This document shows positions 2,227-39,996 of a DNA stretch of 64,000 nt, piece after piece (the first letter of the stretch is position 1; the number at the start of each line of letters is the position of its first letter). The stretch lies in NCBI RefSeq assembly GCF_003362725.1, contig NZ_QKTV01000006.1:62001-126000 (forward strand), written 5' to 3'. The translations under genes were made by a program, and so were the position numbers. The notes beneath the pieces are model-generated. The model saw only the letters and a list, made by a program, of their open reading frames with translations, was not told where the DNA came from and made no database searches. This DNA is from Winogradskyella aurantiaca (lineage in GTDB: Bacteria; Bacteroidota; Bacteroidia; Flavobacteriales; Flavobacteriaceae).

Positions 2227-5175
2227 ATGAAATATGCCCTTCTTGTTCTGGGATTAGCACTTTTCCTAAGTTCTTGTGATTCCAGATCGGAAATTCCCCC
2301 AGCACAAAAAGACCAAGCACTCATCAATTATGTGAACCCATTTATTGGAACTGGAGGACATGGCCATACCTATCCTGGGGCCAGCATGCCCTTTGGTATG
2401 ATGCAACTCAGTCCAGATACACGACTCGATGGATGGGATGGTTGTTCTGGATACCACTATTCAGATTCATATATTTATGGGTTTTCACACACCCACCTCA
2501 GTGGTACTGGAGTATCGGATTATGGAGATATTTTATTGATGCCAACCAATGAAATCATTTTTAATAATGGCACCAATCCTTCAACAGTCTCAGGACAGGT
2601 TGAGAAAGGCTATGGAGCTCATTTCTCGCATAAGAATGAAATTGCAAAACCTGGTTATTATAGTGTGCATTTAGATTCTACTAACATTGATGTGGAACTA
2701 ACAGTCAGCAAGCGCAGCGGCATACACAGGTACCAATTTCCTGATGCTGAGAACCAAATAGTAATCCTTGATTTAGAACACCGGGATCAATTGTTGGATT
2801 TCAAGTTTATACAAAACAATGATTTCAGCATTAGTGGCTTTAGGCATTCAAAAGCCTGGGCCACAGATCAAATGTTATTCTATTACATGGAGTTTTCGCA
2901 TAAAATCGACGAGTCCCACTTTAACGATCCTAACAAGCCTTCAATAATAGCCTTAAAATTTATAAATCCAAAAAACGAGCCTGTTCTAGTCAAAATAGCG
3001 ATTTCTGCTGTGGATATTGAAGGGGCAAAACAAAATCTAAAGACGGAAATTGGGGATAAAGGTTTCGAGGAGGTAAAAATAGAGGCACAAAAAGCCTGGG
3101 AAAGTCAATTGGAAAAAATAGTGGTTGAAAGCGATAATCAGGACTACAAAACCAATTTCTATACAGCCATGTATCACAACATGTTGGCGCCAAACCTCTA
3201 TCAAGATGTCGACGGCCGCTACCGTGGTATGGACCTCGAGGTACATCAAACCCAGGATTTTGACTATTACACGGTCTTTTCCTTGTGGGATACTTACAGA
3301 GCTACGCACCCTTTGTATACCTTAATTGAGCAGGAGCGAACGAATGACTTTATCAATACATTTTTAGCTAAATACGATGAGGGAGGTATTATGCCTATTT
3401 GGGATCTTTCAGCCTGTTATACCGGATGTATGATTGGTTATCATGCGGTTCCAGTAATCGCCGACGCCTACCTAAAGGGCATTAGGGGATACGATTCCGA
3501 AAAAGCTTTGGAAGCCATGAAACATTCCGCCATGCAGAACAAACTCGGCTTGGAATCGTATAAGAAAATGGGCTACATCCCCGTAGAATTTGAAAGCGAA
3601 TCGGTATCCAAAACCCTGGAATATGCCTATGATGATTGGACCATCGCACAAATGGCCAAGGCCATGGGAAAGGATGAGGATTATAAGACCTATTTACAGC
3701 GCGCCCAATCCTACAAGAACATCTTTGATCCTAGTTCTAAATTCATGAGAGGACGTTTTAGGAACACTTGGTTTGCGCCTTTTGATCCTTATGAAGTTAA
3801 CTTTAACTATACAGAGGCTAATGCTTGGCAATACTCTAACTATGTGCCGCAAGACATTTCAGGATTAATAGAATTACATGGCGGTAAGACAGCTTTTGAA
3901 GCACATTTGGATGAAGTTTTTTCTGCCAGTAATGAAACCTCAGGCCGCAACCAGGCCGATATCACTGGACTTATTGGGCAGTATGCTCACGGTAATGAAC
4001 CCAGCCATCATATGGCGTACCTCTACAACTTTATTAATCGGCCGCACAAAACTCAGGAAAAGGTTCATCAGATTCTCACTAAACTATACACCAATTCACC
4101 CGATGGTATTTCTGGAAATGAAGACTGTGGACAAATGAGCGCCTGGTACATTTTATCATCTATGGGCTTTTATCCGGTAACACCTGGAAGTAATCATTAC
4201 ATTATTGGCACCCCTTTATGGGAACGTAGCACTTTTAATTTAGAAAACGGAAATCAATTTACTATTGCGACAAATAACTTATCGGATACTAATATTTATG
4301 TAGAATATGTAAGACTCAATGGTAAAAATCTTGACAGGTCTTACCTCACCCATGATGAAATTATGGCTGGTGGGGTTCTTGAATTTGACATGACTGATAA
4401 TCCGGCTGTATGGGGGAGTAGAGCTGGTCAAGAACCCAAAACCGAGATTAATGAACACCTGATTGTTCCCGCACCTTATATAGCATCGGGAGATGTCGCT
4501 TTTAAAAATGAAACTGAGGTCAGATTAGAAACAATAGATACTGAATCTAAAATATATTATCGTTTAGGTCATAAAGGTGCATACCGAGAATATAAAGAAC
4601 CAGTTAAAGTTGTTCAAGCTGTAAATCTATTTGTTTATGGTGAAAGAAATGATGTAAAAAGCTCAATAGTTGAAACTGAATTCTACAAGATTGATCCAAA
4701 TATTTCTATTAAACTAGATACCGAATATGCCAACCAGTACAATGCAGGAGGTAATGACGCCTTAATCGATGGCATCGTTGGCACCGAAGACTTTAGAACG
4801 GGCACCTGGCAAGGCTATTGGAATGAAGACGTAATTGCGACGGTGGATTTGGGTAAAACAACTCCATTATCGAGCATTACAACTTCGTTTTTAAGAGATC
4901 AGCGCAGTTGGATTTTTTTACCAACTCAGCTTAGTATTTACACCTCAACTGATGGTCAAAACTTTAAAAAGGTTAAGAACTATAAATTTGAAGCTCCATT
5001 TAATACCGAGGAGGTTGAGATAAAAACTATCGAGCTCAATGATCCAGGACCTGCAAGATATGTTAAACTCGTTGCCAAGAAATTAGGAACTCTGCCCGAA
5101 TGGCATCTTGGTTATGCACATGATGGTCGCAGCTGGATTTTTATAGATGAAATACAAATAACTAAACAACCATAA
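2227..5175 (+). CDS. GH92 family alpha-mannosidase lipoprotein
   Basis: Calcium-dependent exo-alpha-mannosidase of the GH92 family (alpha-1,2-type in characterised Bacteroides enzymes), which trims mannose from high-mannose N-glycans. The 982-aa protein starts with a lipoprotein signal (lipobox LSSC, Cys17). The N-terminal GH92 beta-sandwich begins with VNPFIGTGGHGHTYPGA, and the (alpha/alpha)6 domain contains the family signature GNEDCGQMSAWYI (Glu632, Asp633) followed by SMGFYPV. Beyond about residue 730 there is an added region with a CHB_HEX_C-like segment and a C-terminal F5/8-C/discoidin-like domain, the same accessory architecture as in the GH20 protein next door. It is the first gene of an operon: its TAA is immediately followed by the ATG of the permease. 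The linkage cleaved (alpha-1,2, -1,3 or -1,6) cannot be decided from sequence by eye. Confidence 0.93.
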   Translation: MKYALLVLGLALFLSSCDSRSEIPPAQKDQALINYVNPFIGTGGHGHTYPGASMPFGMMQLSPDTRLDGWDGCSGYHYSDSYIYGFSHTHLSGTGVSDYGDILLMPTNEIIFNNGTNPSTVSGQVEKGYGAHFSHKNEIAKPGYYSVHLDSTNIDVELTVSKRSGIHRYQFPDAENQIVILDLEHRDQLLDFKFIQNNDFSISGFRHSKAWATDQMLFYYMEFSHKIDESHFNDPNKPSIIALKFINPKNEPVLVKIAISAVDIEGAKQNLKTEIGDKGFEEVKIEAQKAWESQLEKIVVESDNQDYKTNFYTAMYHNMLAPNLYQDVDGRYRGMDLEVHQTQDFDYYTVFSLWDTYRATHPLYTLIEQERTNDFINTFLAKYDEGGIMPIWDLSACYTGCMIGYHAVPVIADAYLKGIRGYDSEKALEAMKHSAMQNKLGLESYKKMGYIPVEFESESVSKTLEYAYDDWTIAQMAKAMGKDEDYKTYLQRAQSYKNIFDPSSKFMRGRFRNTWFAPFDPYEVNFNYTEANAWQYSNYVPQDISGLIELHGGKTAFEAHLDEVFSASNETSGRNQADITGLIGQYAHGNEPSHHMAYLYNFINRPHKTQEKVHQILTKLYTNSPDGISGNEDCGQMSAWYILSSMGFYPVTPGSNHYIIGTPLWERSTFNLENGNQFTIATNNLSDTNIYVEYVRLNGKNLDRSYLTHDEIMAGGVLEFDMTDNPAVWGSRAGQEPKTEINEHLIVPAPYIASGDVAFKNETEVRLETIDTESKIYYRLGHKGAYREYKEPVKVVQAVNLFVYGERNDVKSSIVETEFYKIDPNISIKLDTEYANQYNAGGNDALIDGIVGTEDFRTGTWQGYWNEDVIATVDLGKTTPLSSITTSFLRDQRSWIFLPTQLSIYTSTDGQNFKKVKNYKFEAPFNTEEVEIKTIELNDPGPARYVKLVAKKLGTLPEWHLGYAHDGRSWIFIDEIQITKQP

Positions 5176-6855
5176 ATGAGTCATCAAAATAACAAATCGG
5201 CCTTAGCTACTCTGGTCACGGTCTTTTTCTTTTGGGGTTTTATTGCCGCATCAAACGGAGTCTTTATTCCCTTTTGTAAGACCTATTTCAACATTGATCA
5301 ATTTCAATCGCAGTTAGTGGATTTTGCTTTTTATGGGGCTTATTACATTGGGGCCTTACTGCTTTTTGTAATATCCGGATCTGCAAAGAAGGACATCCTG
5401 AATAACTGGGGCTACAAAAATGGTATTGTCTATGGCTTGCTATTATCTGCCATTGGGGCTTTTGTTATGTATCCCGCCACATCTGGGGCTGAGCAAGGGC
5501 AGACCAATGTATTCTACCTGGTATTAATAGCTTATTTCGTAGTGGCCCTTGGCTTCTCGTTACAACAAACCGCTGCTAATCCATTTGCCATAGCTTTAGG
5601 AGATCCAAAAACGGGGTCGCATCGGTTAAATCTAGCCGGTGGTATTAACTCCTTTGGAACCACTATTGGACCCATTGTAGTTAGTCTAGTGATCTTTGGT
5701 TCTGCAACTTGGAGTACAGATGAACTAGCAGGTATGATTGCTGATAATAAAATCACCTTAGTAACAGTACAAACCCTTTATCTTGGTGTAGGTTTATTGT
5801 TTCTAATGGCAGCAGCCTTATTTTATTTTTCAAAGAAACTTCCTGCACTTAAATCTGAAACAGCTTTTGAATCCGCGAATAAAGCGCGAAACTTACTTCT
5901 TATTTTAACCATTATTATTGTAGCCTGTTTTAGCTACATCTTTAGCACCTATTCAGGCGAGGAGCTAACAGGTGCCGCCTTAGAGGAAGTTGAAAACACC
6001 AGGTTAATCGTCTTATTTGTAGCGCTGCTCTCTGTGATTGTAGCCATCTTAACAACATTCAGGAGTGCAGTCAAAAAACCGGAAGGATGGGGCGCTATGA
6101 AATATCCCCAATTAGTTCTGGGTATGCTGGCTATTTTCACCTACGTTGGTGTAGAAGTAACCATAGGATCTAACCTGGGTGAATTATTAAAGCAAGCCGC
6201 AGGTGATACTGGATTGAACGCGCTTAAACTACCCATTTTAAATGACTCTCAACTAGGAAGCTACATTTCGCTTTATTGGGGGGGGCTAATGATTGGAAGA
6301 TGGGTAGGCGCTATAACAGTGTTTAATCCAAGTAAAGGATTGAAGAAAGCCCTACTAATAATCGTTCCTTATGTAGCCTTTGGGGTTATTATTCTGGTGA
6401 ATTCCTTTAAAACGCCGTTCACATCAAACGAAATATTATTCTTTGCTATTTGTATAGCCGTGCAAATTATTGGTTTCTTTTTGGCTAAGGACAATCCTGT
6501 GACAACCTTGAAAATATTTAGTTTTCTAGGTATTATTGGAATGTTAGTTGGTCTTTTTACCCACGGGAATATTGCCTTATTTGCATTTTTATCAGGAGGC
6601 TTGTTCTGTTCTATTATGTGGCCTTGTATTTTTACCTTAAGTATCGCCGGTCTGGGCAAATATACCTCACAGGGATCTACTTTTTTAATTATGATGATTC
6701 TTGGAGGAGCTATTATTCCACCAGTACAAGGAAAACTTGCCGATGTATTTAGCATTCAGTCCTCGTATTGGATTGCTGTTGCCTGTTTTGGATATCTGCT
6801 GTTTTACGCTTACCGCACTAAATTGGTTCTTGATAAACAAGGAGTAGACTACTAA
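5176..6855 (+). CDS. Sugar:proton symporter of the FHS (FucP/NagP) MFS family
   Basis: Inner-membrane major facilitator with about 12 or more hydrophobic segments, resembling L-fucose permease and the N-acetylglucosamine permease NagP. The N-terminus ([22 protein letters not shown]) and the region [18 protein letters not shown] are typical of the FHS group. At 559 aa it is longer than most family members (about 410-450), the extra length lying in the loop regions around residues 225-300. The ATG abuts the stop of the mannosidase gene without any gap, and the glycosylasparaginase follows 20 bp later, so it most likely imports a monosaccharide or GlcNAc-containing product released by the glycosidases. 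The substrate is inferred from context only. Confidence 0.88.
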
Positions 6856-38477: not shown

Positions 38478-38930
38478 ATGTCCATGCTTGCTCCCTTTCT
38501 GGAAGACAAGGGTTATTCTAAGGTAAAATTGAAGTTTACGAAGACCAATCATTTCGAAATAAGAGCTTCAATTAATGATGTTAAGGGTCGGTTTATTCTG
38601 GATACTGGGGCATCAAATTCTTGTGTTGGGTTTGAAGCCATAGATAGATTTAATTTATCTGTAAAAGATTCGGAAATAAAAGCAGTTGGTGCAGGAGCCT
38701 CCAATATGCAAACCAAAATATCCTCTTCAAATAAAATGAAAATTGGTAAATGGAAAAAAAACCGAGTTGCTCTGGTATTATTTAATCTTACTCATGTGAA
38801 TGAAGGGCTTATTAGTCATAATGCAAATCCTGTAGATGGGATCATTGGTGCTGATATCCTCAAAAAAGGAAAAGCCATTATTGATTACGATAAAAAGTAC
38901 CTCTATTTAAAACTTGACCAATCAAAATGA
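38478..38930 (+). CDS. Retropepsin-like single-domain aspartic protease
   Basis: 150 aa from ATG 38478 (a second ATG at 38484 is possible). The core has FILDTGASNSCV with catalytic Asp42 in D-T-G-A, a flap-like region, and IDGIIGADILKKGKAIIDY, the second hydrophobic-GADIL signature of retropepsins (DUF4124/gag-asp like). No signal peptide or TM, so probably cytosolic, and it would act as a homodimer. Its stop overlaps the next gene by 4 nt (ATGA), so protease and regulator are translationally coupled. Confidence 0.86.
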   Translation: MSMLAPFLEDKGYSKVKLKFTKTNHFEIRASINDVKGRFILDTGASNSCVGFEAIDRFNLSVKDSEIKAVGAGASNMQTKISSSNKMKIGKWKKNRVALVLFNLTHVNEGLISHNANPVDGIIGADILKKGKAIIDYDKKYLYLKLDQSK

Positions 38931-39556
38931 CACATTCTCCCACTGTTCTTATTGCTGATGATCACCCATTGGTACTAAAAGGACTTCATGATTTTTTAAT
39001 AGAGAAAAAACACAAGGTTCAATGGACGGCAAAACATGGACGCGAAGCCATGACCTTGATAAAAGCCCATGAACCCGATATTGCTATTTTGGATATTCAA
39101 ATGCCGCATATGACGGGCATAGAAATAGCTCAAAACATCCAGGAACTCAGTCTTAAAACTAAGGTCATTTTAATAACATTTGAGAAAAGTCCCAGTATAT
39201 ATCTTAAATCTAGAGAAGCAAATGTCTACGGGTATATTTTAAAGGAGTTTGCATTAGATGAAATTGAAAAATGTCTCGAACGCGTTTATCAATGTCTCTC
39301 GTATTTTAGTAAAGACCTGCTGCCACTTATAGAAATTGATGAAAGCATCGATATGCTCGATAGGTTAACCCATTCTGAACGAAATATTTTAAAGCAATTG
39401 GCATCCAATAAATCTGCTAAAGAAATAGCCGATGAAATATCAATTTCTGTAAGAACGGTTGAAAAGCATAAAAGCAGTATCAGACAGAAGCTAAATTTAG
39501 ATTCCAAGTCGGCGACACTTTATTTATTTGCTTACAGTCATTTAAAGTTCCTCTAA
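38927..39556 (+). CDS. NarL/LuxR family response regulator
   Basis: 209 aa. The receiver domain has Asp11-Asp12, phospho-acceptor Asp56 (AILDIQMP), Thr84 and Lys106 (YILKEFA). From about residue 145 a LuxR-type helix-turn-helix follows (LTHSERNILKQLASNKSAKEIADEISISVRTVEKHKSSI). No histidine kinase gene is in the window. It overlaps the retropepsin gene by ATGA. Downstream are two copies of a GTAGTTCTACGTAT element, candidate binding sites for this or a related regulator. Confidence 0.93.
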   Translation: MTHSPTVLIADDHPLVLKGLHDFLIEKKHKVQWTAKHGREAMTLIKAHEPDIAILDIQMPHMTGIEIAQNIQELSLKTKVILITFEKSPSIYLKSREANVYGYILKEFALDEIEKCLERVYQCLSYFSKDLLPLIEIDESIDMLDRLTHSERNILKQLASNKSAKEIADEISISVRTVEKHKSSIRQKLNLDSKSATLYLFAYSHLKFL

Positions 39557-39656
39557 ATTAAGTAGTTCTACGTATGGACTCGTATTGTTTTTATTTAGAC
39601 CTTTATGACTCCTGGTTTTACAATTTCGCTATTATTAAACCATACAGAAAATACTA

Positions 39657-39682
39657 GATCCTGGTATCACACTACCAGGATC
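39657..39682 (+). terminator. Hairpin downstream of the response regulator gene
   Basis: Perfect 10-bp arms GATCCTGGTA (39657-39666) and TACCAGGATC (39673-39682), loop TCACAC, followed by ATCCTTTTAT. Weak T-tract, so either a modest terminator or a structured element. Confidence 0.5.
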
Positions 39683-39695
39683 ATCCTTTTATAAA

Positions 39696-39713
39696 ATACG
39701 TAGTTCTACGTAT
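39696..39713. promoter_or_regulatory. 18-bp dyad, probable regulator-binding site
   Basis: ATACGTAG-TT-CTACGTAT is a perfect inverted repeat of 8-bp arms with a 2-bp centre. The right 14 bp are repeated exactly at 39562-39575. The symmetry suits a dimeric NarL-type regulator. Confidence 0.55.
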
Positions 39714-39782
39714 AGAAAATAGCTTCTTTTTCACGAATTTTACAATGCTATTAATTAATCCCCCAAATTTAAGTTCTTATAT

Positions 39783-39813
39783 GCACTGGGCTTTTTTTTA
39801 AAAGGCCCAGTGC
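39783..39813 (+). other. 9-bp hairpin upstream of the 35-codon ORF
   Basis: Arms GCACTGGGC (39783-39791) and GCCCAGTGC (39805-39813) with a T-rich loop that contains eight T. It could terminate transcription or shape the leader of the short ORF. Confidence 0.45.
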
Positions 39814-39827
39814 TTAATAAATGTTAC

Positions 39828-39935
39828 ATGTTAAGCAAACCAAAAAAAAGATGTGGTGATGCATTTACTATTATGCTCATCGCTTCAGTGGTAGCAATTA
39901 TTTCAATAAACATCTTGTTAATTTTTTTTAGTTAA
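39828..39935 (+). CDS. Candidate 35-aa single-pass membrane peptide
   Basis: ATG at 39828 opens 35 codons ending in TAA at 39933-39935. The peptide has a basic start (MLSKPKKRCGDAF) and one hydrophobic helix (TIMLIASVVAIISINILLIFF), a plausible small membrane protein. No Shine-Dalgarno, normal for this phylum. It lies between a hairpin and a terminator, downstream of the dyad. Coding status is unproven. Confidence 0.4.
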   Translation: MLSKPKKRCGDAFTIMLIASVVAIISINILLIFFS

Positions 39936-39965
39936 TCTAGTTAGTTAAAATAGCCCTGAAGCAAA

Positions 39966-39996
39966 AAAAGCGCAATTCGGTCAAATTGCGCTTTTC
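39966..39996. terminator. Bidirectional terminator between the short ORF and sucB
   Basis: Perfect 12-bp stem AAAAGCGCAATT (39966-39977) with AATTGCGCTTTT (39984-39995), 6-nt loop; A-run before and T-run after, so it works for both strands. Confidence 0.85.

Follow-up and report, generated by a model that had tools for sequence, protein, structure and literature searches.

Gene organization of the locus

A 64,000-nucleotide stretch of the 3.1-Mb genome of Winogradskyella aurantiaca (contig NZ_QKTV01000006.1, C22:62001–126000 in the numbering used here, and referred to as the window) contains a gene for a NarL/FixJ-type response regulator (RR) that is followed directly by an array of small, palindrome-bearing promoter modules, which the RR probably activates to produce a small RNA (sRNA) and a one-helix membrane peptide. 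All features of the array and the two genes preceding it lie on the forward strand. The first gene (38478–38930) encodes a single-domain retropepsin-like aspartic protease, which matches PF13650 (E value 4.6e-12; 46.9 bits versus a cut-off of 24.3) and carries a DTG motif, together placing it in clan AA; among the matches listed, its closest relatives are Winogradskyella proteins (≤84%). The RR (38927–39556) contains both a receiver domain (Response_reg, PF00072, 4.8e-26) and a LuxR-type (GerE) helix-turn-helix (HTH) domain (PF00196, 2.1e-13), each above the cut-off, and is thus a member of the NarL/FixJ family; an Asp residue in its motif ILDIQMP was spotted by eye. No kinase gene is present among the open reading frames (ORFs) read around the RR gene, in agreement with its preliminary description as an orphan regulator. 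The array is bounded downstream by a convergent odhB-like gene, and tatD-like and asparaginase-like genes lie upstream, divergent from the protease gene (names read from the ORFs; synteny determined by tblastn).

Two modules can be discerned in the array. In the first, operator 1 (TAAGTAGTTCTACGTA, 39559–39574; one mismatch to the pattern TACGTAGNNCTACGTA) begins 2 bp past the RR stop codon and is followed at the canonical offset by the -7 box GACCTTTAT (39598–39606), as read from the sequence; this box recurs at an equal offset in locus L008. The start region of module 1 is diverged, with GCTATTATT located 18 nt further down from the -7 box, and the module was therefore not scored by the scan described below and was recognized by eye. 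A terminator-like hairpin (39657–39682; z -5.4 for 39610–39692) would end the short RNA proposed for this module, a diverged sRNA unit. In the second, the perfect 18-bp dyad ATACGTAGTTCTACGTAT (operator 2, 39696–39713, with the module operator counted from 39697) is followed by the -7 box GAATTTTAC (39735–39743), the spacer being one base shorter than the consensus, and by the putative transcription start GCTATTAAT (39747–39755), which corresponds to the conserved RNA 5' end. Downstream of this are a leader hairpin (39783–39813; z -3.6 for 39747–39827), a 35-codon ORF for a predicted one-helix membrane peptide (39828–39935), and a terminator-like hairpin (39966–39995) that lies 3' of the ORF and precedes the odhB-like gene. 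For the stretches with the hairpins at 39657 and at 39783, none of 200 dinucleotide shuffles folded as well as the native sequence. The protease, regulator, dyads, hairpins, 35-codon ORF, and terminator-like hairpin are thus all located where the preliminary description had placed them, and its single set of elements behind the regulator is real; instead of one module, however, the window holds an array, and relatives carry one to four modules per locus.

Conserved architecture of the promoter modules

Across loci, a module consists of TACGTA-N4-TACGTA, immediately followed by a -33 element (TTG or TT-rich) and then, after a gap of 20 nt, by (G/T)AnnTTTAC, which three bases separate from GCTATTAAT. 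According to PMC9723704, the σA consensus of Flavobacterium psychrophilum is TAnnTTTG at -12 to -5, and from the location of this motif we infer that transcription starts at GCTATTAAT and that the operator is centred near -43.

Among 61 RR loci, one, two, three, and four modules were scored in 25, 27, 5, and 4 loci, respectively, spaced at intervals of 128–187 bp or 266–408 bp. The consensus spacer is present in 98 of 101 modules and the usual distance from the -7 box to the start in 97 of 101, figures obtained with a scan that was trained on the consensus spacing and penalizes other spacings. An independent figure is given by a pattern search in which any gap of 25–53 was allowed: the module pattern was found in 63 of 299 family genomes and its reversed control in 2, and almost every match listed has a length of 58–60 nt. 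In the genome of W. aurantiaca, the exact pattern TACGTAGNNCTACGTA occurs at four sites (none for the reversed control); when up to three mismatches are permitted, the forward pattern shows no enrichment (46 matches versus 134 in the control), and only exact and one-mismatch sites therefore carry weight. A mobile or simple repeat was rejected as an explanation because the copies occur mostly at one syntenic place and only four exact dyads are present in this genome.

Linkage between the RR gene and the modules

A scan of genome contigs with the protease alone yielded 55 loci (L010–L064), which constitute a set independent of the motif. By tblastn, an RR gene adjoins the protease gene in 33 of these loci and not in the remaining 22, three of which (L021, L022, and L052) end at a contig end, 259–361 nt past the protease gene. 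A scored module is located downstream in all 33 RR-bearing loci; among the other 22, L026 and L061 have one. The dyad, whose occurrence next to NarL-type genes in relatives was raised in the preliminary description, is thus present beside such genes in this set. Because the motif itself was used to retrieve loci L065–L094, these do not count as independent evidence; when they are included, at least one module is present in each of 58 distinct RR loci (the 61 RR loci minus the repeats L070, L071, and L090). These 58 loci comprise the window and those fetched with the motif as well; in 48 of them, the first module scored starts between -12 and +20 bp relative to the RR stop codon. On these grounds, we propose that the RR is the activator of the modules.

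The 18 adjacent RRs sampled form one group in a phylogenetic tree (support 100/99); the tree lacks nine intended rows (eight generic paralogues and L049) and its outgroup is a single long-branched row, so it shows the grouping of the adjacent RRs and not the exact root. The operator also accompanies some RR homologues that have been relocated: in four Winogradskyella genomes (L099–L102), TACGTA-N4-TACGTA is found 4–5 bp past their own stop codons. At ~2135–2330 in these loci, the dyad TACGTAGGCCTACGTA (TACGTACCCCTACGTA in L099) separates the homologous RR gene from the region that follows, which in L099 is a gene for a secreted-looking protein. Such dyads may be an additional class of targets for this RR subfamily.

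The peptide is retained in six loci without an adjacent RR (L021, L023, L024, L025, L027, and L035), accompanied by a dyad-like site in each except L021. In five genomes that lack an adjacent RR and keep the operator, peptide, or sRNA, an RR homologue is encoded elsewhere (E values of 2.7e-39 to 6.8e-45), while in four other genomes without an adjacent RR the best RR match is 1.1e-21 or weaker. The module-less genomes of L032 and L045 contain no RR homologue better than 1.1e-21.

The protease gene is probably a conserved neighbour that lies outside the module. In the preliminary description, the protease and the RR were regarded as a signalling pair, translationally coupled through an ATGA overlap, in which the protease would control the RR or the peptide. 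The 4-bp overlap exists in the window, and the order of the two genes is conserved among relatives; the overlap is, however, absent from all 34 other loci (L008 and L009 counted as one), where the gap from the protease to the first listed RR start codon is 9–82 nt in 33 of the 34 and could not be measured in L049. In addition, RR homologues sit apart from the protease gene in several genomes, and no adjacent RR is seen in the 22 protease loci mentioned above, including the three at contig ends. The coupling is therefore a peculiarity of this genome, a conserved protease–RR unit is rejected, and control of the RR or the peptide by the protease is most improbable.

The short RNA

The conserved RNA is predicted to begin at GCTATTAAT, and a hairpin is present in 97 of the 101 units of the 58 distinct RR loci, with a U-rich stretch at the end of the hairpin in 82 of the 97, as determined with our own finder. 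In 39 chosen units, the first 21 nt are identical except that a single row carries one inserted base. These 39 rows were picked from 48 sRNA-like units that were already required to match a 5' pattern, and eight units with shorter or diverged 5' ends were excluded, as was L018_1 despite its canonical 5' end; the invariance of the 5' end thus results partly from selection. Its recurrence was tested with a 19-mer from the RNA 5' end, TATTAATTAGTTCTTAGGG, which is found exactly in 78 of 397 family genomes, the reversed control giving 0 in every row.

In the alignment, both sides have changed in 10 of the 11 pairs of the hairpin, and 78 cells show such changes versus 23.4 after shuffling, a value reached in none of 500 shuffles; the covariation score is 0.45 versus 0.25 for the shuffled alignments (0 of 500). 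A second, 5' hairpin (UAGUUCU/AGAAUUA) is compatible with 98.8% of cells; it scarcely varies and is therefore without covariation support. Searches against Rfam detected nothing but a tRNA in the window and, in five loci, nothing above the gathering threshold but tRNAs. When a covariance model of the RNA (R1) was applied across the class (17 candidates scored per genome, with stricter filters), scores of 33–39 bits were obtained in 11 of 295 genomes, which we take for chance terminator-like matches. The sRNA 5' end also occurs without a recognizable operator in L135 (exact) and L188 (G096:C10:56294; one mismatch, followed by a hairpin), perhaps in further regulatory contexts.

An alternative is that the short RNA is a protein sponge of the CsrB/RsmZ type, with AGGG in the hairpin loops titrating an RNA-binding protein and the 5' block serving as its binding site. 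AGGG, AAGGG, or AGGGG occurs within the first 60 nt in 65 of 101 units (a raw count, given without a chance expectation), and the predicted fold of L072 includes a 5' hairpin with its loop in AGGG. CsrA (PF02599), however, was detected in none of 22 genomes by a search whose control finds CsrA in Escherichia coli, Bacillus subtilis, and Thermotoga (RbpB-type RRM proteins were not searched for). A CsrA sponge is excluded in all 22 genomes examined by this absence, and a sponge in general appears unlikely.

The membrane peptide

A filter for size, hydrophobicity, and motif selected 57 ORFs, from which 26-residue cores were taken; a few of these, e.g. L041_9, are evident false picks. The core pattern is approximately K-x-x-x-I-x-L-(about 11 hydrophobic residues)-N-I-x-V-N-F-F. 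Conservation of the Asn is partly due to selection because the filter itself asks for this residue, and one RR locus (L076) contains a hydrophobic small ORF without it. Over 93 pairs with 70–97% nucleotide identity, the summed synonymous (pS) and non-synonymous (pN) divergences are 0.53 and 0.13, respectively (summed pN/pS, 0.25), and pN is lower than pS in all 93 pairs, which share sequences and are not independent. By these measures, the peptide is under purifying selection. A looser filter detected a peptide ORF in 51 of the 58 distinct RR loci, and the ORF specifies 31–38 residues in 62 of 66 cases when loci without an adjacent RR are included. Neither Pfam (window peptide and three relatives) nor NCBIfam (window peptide and four relatives) gave a match at the cut-off. 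The 35-codon ORF first noticed in the window thus proves to represent a conserved family. In L047, L050, L072, L073, and L089, the sRNA is present with no peptide passing the filter; the existence of such loci makes the RNA look like the more general output.

Hydrophobic one-helix peptides of ~35 residues beside short RNAs resemble type I toxin–antitoxin loci, in which case the peptide would be a toxin and the short RNAs its antitoxins. Such an arrangement is very unlikely here: the RNA and peptide units are co-directional and consecutive, with no antisense overlap, and several loci, the five just named, have the sRNA with no peptide passing the filter. Duplexes predicted between the sRNA 5' end and the peptide mRNA were also near those of mononucleotide shuffles (mean z -0.47 over 35 rows, of which three come from one locus and one is a probable false ORF; four rows had z <= -1.8), so that type I pairing received no clear signal in this test.

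A second candidate regulator with the same RNA

The 19-mer was used to fetch 30 loci. The protease–RR site accounts for 21 of them and a protease gene without an adjacent RR for one; seven lie behind a gene read as encoding PAS and GerE domains (PAS–LuxR-type), and one is in neither context. In the seven PAS–LuxR loci, the palindrome TACTCAA(A/T)TTGAGTA replaces TACGTA-N4-TACGTA, with an unchanged distance to the start and an unchanged 5' RNA block, which is then followed by a different hairpin. We propose TACTCAATTTGAGTA as the operator of the PAS–LuxR protein. In both PAS–LuxR proteins tested, GerE scored above the Pfam cut-off; PAS_3 scored above it in the copy of the W. aurantiaca genome and just below it in L137. 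Close homologues (62–71% identity) are encoded in 6 of 13 genomes, including that of W. aurantiaca, and in all five genomes in which the downstream DNA was read, the TACTCAA(A/T)TTGAGTA palindrome and a GCTATTA start are located behind the gene, the RNA being diverged in W. aurantiaca. The operator thus changes together with the adjacent regulator, whereas the RNA is retained; nothing else argues as strongly that each regulator is paired with its operator, or that the RNA is the functional product.

This second context also bears on the possibility that the leader is an attenuator, in which case its hairpin and U-run would govern read-through into the peptide gene, leaving the short RNA as a by-product. 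Peptide units do have a hairpin before the ORF (39783–39813 in the window). Units without a following peptide nevertheless keep the 5' block intact, and the block is found behind PAS–LuxR genes as well, where no peptide of this family is present among the small ORFs listed; attenuation is accordingly quite unlikely as the primary role of the leader.

Other copies in the W. aurantiaca genome

The W. aurantiaca genome carries diverged copies: the two modules in the window, one on contig C10, and the PAS–LuxR copy on C19. The unit on C10 (C10:8484), the third of its type, was found with the free-gap pattern and has AGGGA in its RNA. Exact dyads without a clear module are present at C10:10555 and C10:105409. 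At the latter region (L006, 4980–5030; G000:C10 ~105.4 kb), a cluster of overlapping TACGTAG half-sites lies between two divergent genes without a GCTATTAAT module. An exact dyad (L005, 7056–7071) is located 5' of a gene for a 425-aa protein, and a few kb from it are a TPR histidine kinase-like gene and a gene for a regulator with a receiver-like N-terminus, recognized by eye (L007, 652–2995). On C19 (L173, 1420–2190, reverse strand; ~246.3 kb of G000:C19), the PAS_3–GerE regulator gene is followed by TACTCAAATTGAGTA, a promoter, and a short RNA. The gene after the PAS–LuxR array is lipoamide dehydrogenase-like in L173 and L172 and murF-like in the seven loci fetched with the 19-mer. Both arrays of the W. 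aurantiaca genome thus adjoin 2-oxoacid dehydrogenase genes (odhB-like and lipoamide dehydrogenase-like), perhaps by chance.

Discussion

The comparative data make it probable that a NarL-type RR switches on a series of small promoters located immediately downstream of its gene, giving an sRNA and a membrane peptide. The regulator-linked short RNA and membrane peptide suggested in the preliminary description are both conserved in the repeated promoter module. In the mechanism we envisage, an activated RR dimer would bind TACGTA-N4-TACGTA, centred near -43 beside the -33 TTG element, i.e. in the position of a class II activator, and σA polymerase would start at GCTATTAAT. One output would be an sRNA of ~65–75 nt that carries a terminator hairpin and whose strongly conserved 5' end most likely acts as a base-pairing seed. 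The other, in most loci, would be a hairpin-leader mRNA for a peptide of ~31–38 aa that has a single transmembrane helix and, near the C-terminus, a conserved Asn; the peptide might act at the inner membrane, e.g. by feedback on a sensor, which is a guess.

Several observations weigh against this interpretation. No convincing kinase partner for the RR emerged from a search with one kinase: with the L103 kinase as query, the matches in four genomes that have an adjacent RR ranged from 3.3e-27 to 1.1e-21, and two further genomes yielded none at 1e-20. Of seven relocated RR homologues examined, L103 lacks a dyad within the sequence retrieved, and the dyads of L108 and L109 are all at least 500 bp away from the RR gene. 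Two full modules are present in L026 (Mangrovimonas sp. TPBH4, 4444–5302), a draft genome with no RR homologue better than 1.1e-20; a dyad-like site and the peptide are retained in L025, from a metagenome-assembled genome where RR homologues reach 7.9e-15 at best; and L061 keeps a module without an adjacent RR (a homologue elsewhere in its genome was not searched for). As for the RNA, the number of hairpin pairs changed on both sides (10) is not above that of the shuffles (mean 8.8; 128 of 500). An antisense search for sRNA targets in eight genomes returned 27 places, 13 of which were counted as sRNA copies, and the other 14 compare with 19 for the reversed control; no target gained support. 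The one recurrent match, at the end of rpsL (rpsL–rpsG junction; L190 and L192), was rejected as a target: the mean duplex energy is -15.7 in 14 genomes with the 19-mer versus -15.8 in 15 without it, the W. aurantiaca genome among the latter (30 genomes were asked, and G051 gave no match). Finally, the exact 19-mer was not found in the W. aurantiaca genome, where the RNAs are diverged and the best R1 score is 22.6 bits (150 of 3232 first-look candidates scored); this genome is therefore a diverged representative of the system.

FixJ/NarL-type operators have TACGTAG-like half-sites and are recognized by a LuxR-type HTH, and the operator described here resembles them by description in both its half-site and the HTH of the associated regulator. 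The multiple short RNAs driven by a LuxR-HTH response regulator recall the GacA/UvrY–RsmY/RsmZ/CsrB systems, from which the present arrays differ in the absence of CsrA in the 22 genomes tested, in the location of the RNAs directly behind the regulator gene, and in the operator.

Among described RNAs of Bacteroidota, FopS/GibS of Bacteroides are multicopy sRNAs that are bound by RbpB and use a 5' seed to down-regulate mRNAs for SusC-like transporters; FopS has been deposited in Rfam and is said to have canonical promoters plus possibly an unknown regulator (PMC11697453). As far as that account describes them, they share multiple copies and a 5' seed with the RNAs described here, for which the seed role is only proposed. 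It is the conserved 5' end, together with this shared architecture, that leads us to propose base-pairing action. Unlike FopS/GibS, the RNAs described here are preceded by a palindromic operator and in most cases lie next to a LuxR-HTH regulator gene, and part of the units code for a peptide; the RNAs also had no Rfam match, in a release that may or may not hold the FopS model. Rfp18 of F. psychrophilum is likewise a conserved flavobacterial sRNA, and the account in PMC9723704 gives its third stem-loop as the pairing region and metalloprotease mRNAs as targets; it is set apart from the present RNAs by description only.

A literature search, judged by title or the start of the abstract, returned no publication treating this system, and the operator and RNA strings had no match in the texts searched. 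The palindromic switches behind RR genes in many Flavobacteriaceae thus look like an undescribed small-RNA control system. To our knowledge, descriptions of sRNA circuits in which the transcription factor has been identified are few for Bacteroidota outside Bacteroides. The peptide adds a conserved family without a match at the cut-off in Pfam or NCBIfam. Because operator, promoter, RNA, and peptide are cleanly laid out, regulator binding, the sRNA regulon, and the partner of the peptide are directly testable in culturable species. There is about an even chance that the system is a riboregulatory hub, in which one sRNA with a nearly invariant 5' end of ~21 nt is placed under at least two LuxR-HTH regulators, each reading a palindrome behind its own gene, and the RR co-produces the peptide. 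If so, several signals would converge on the same RNA targets and on a membrane protein.
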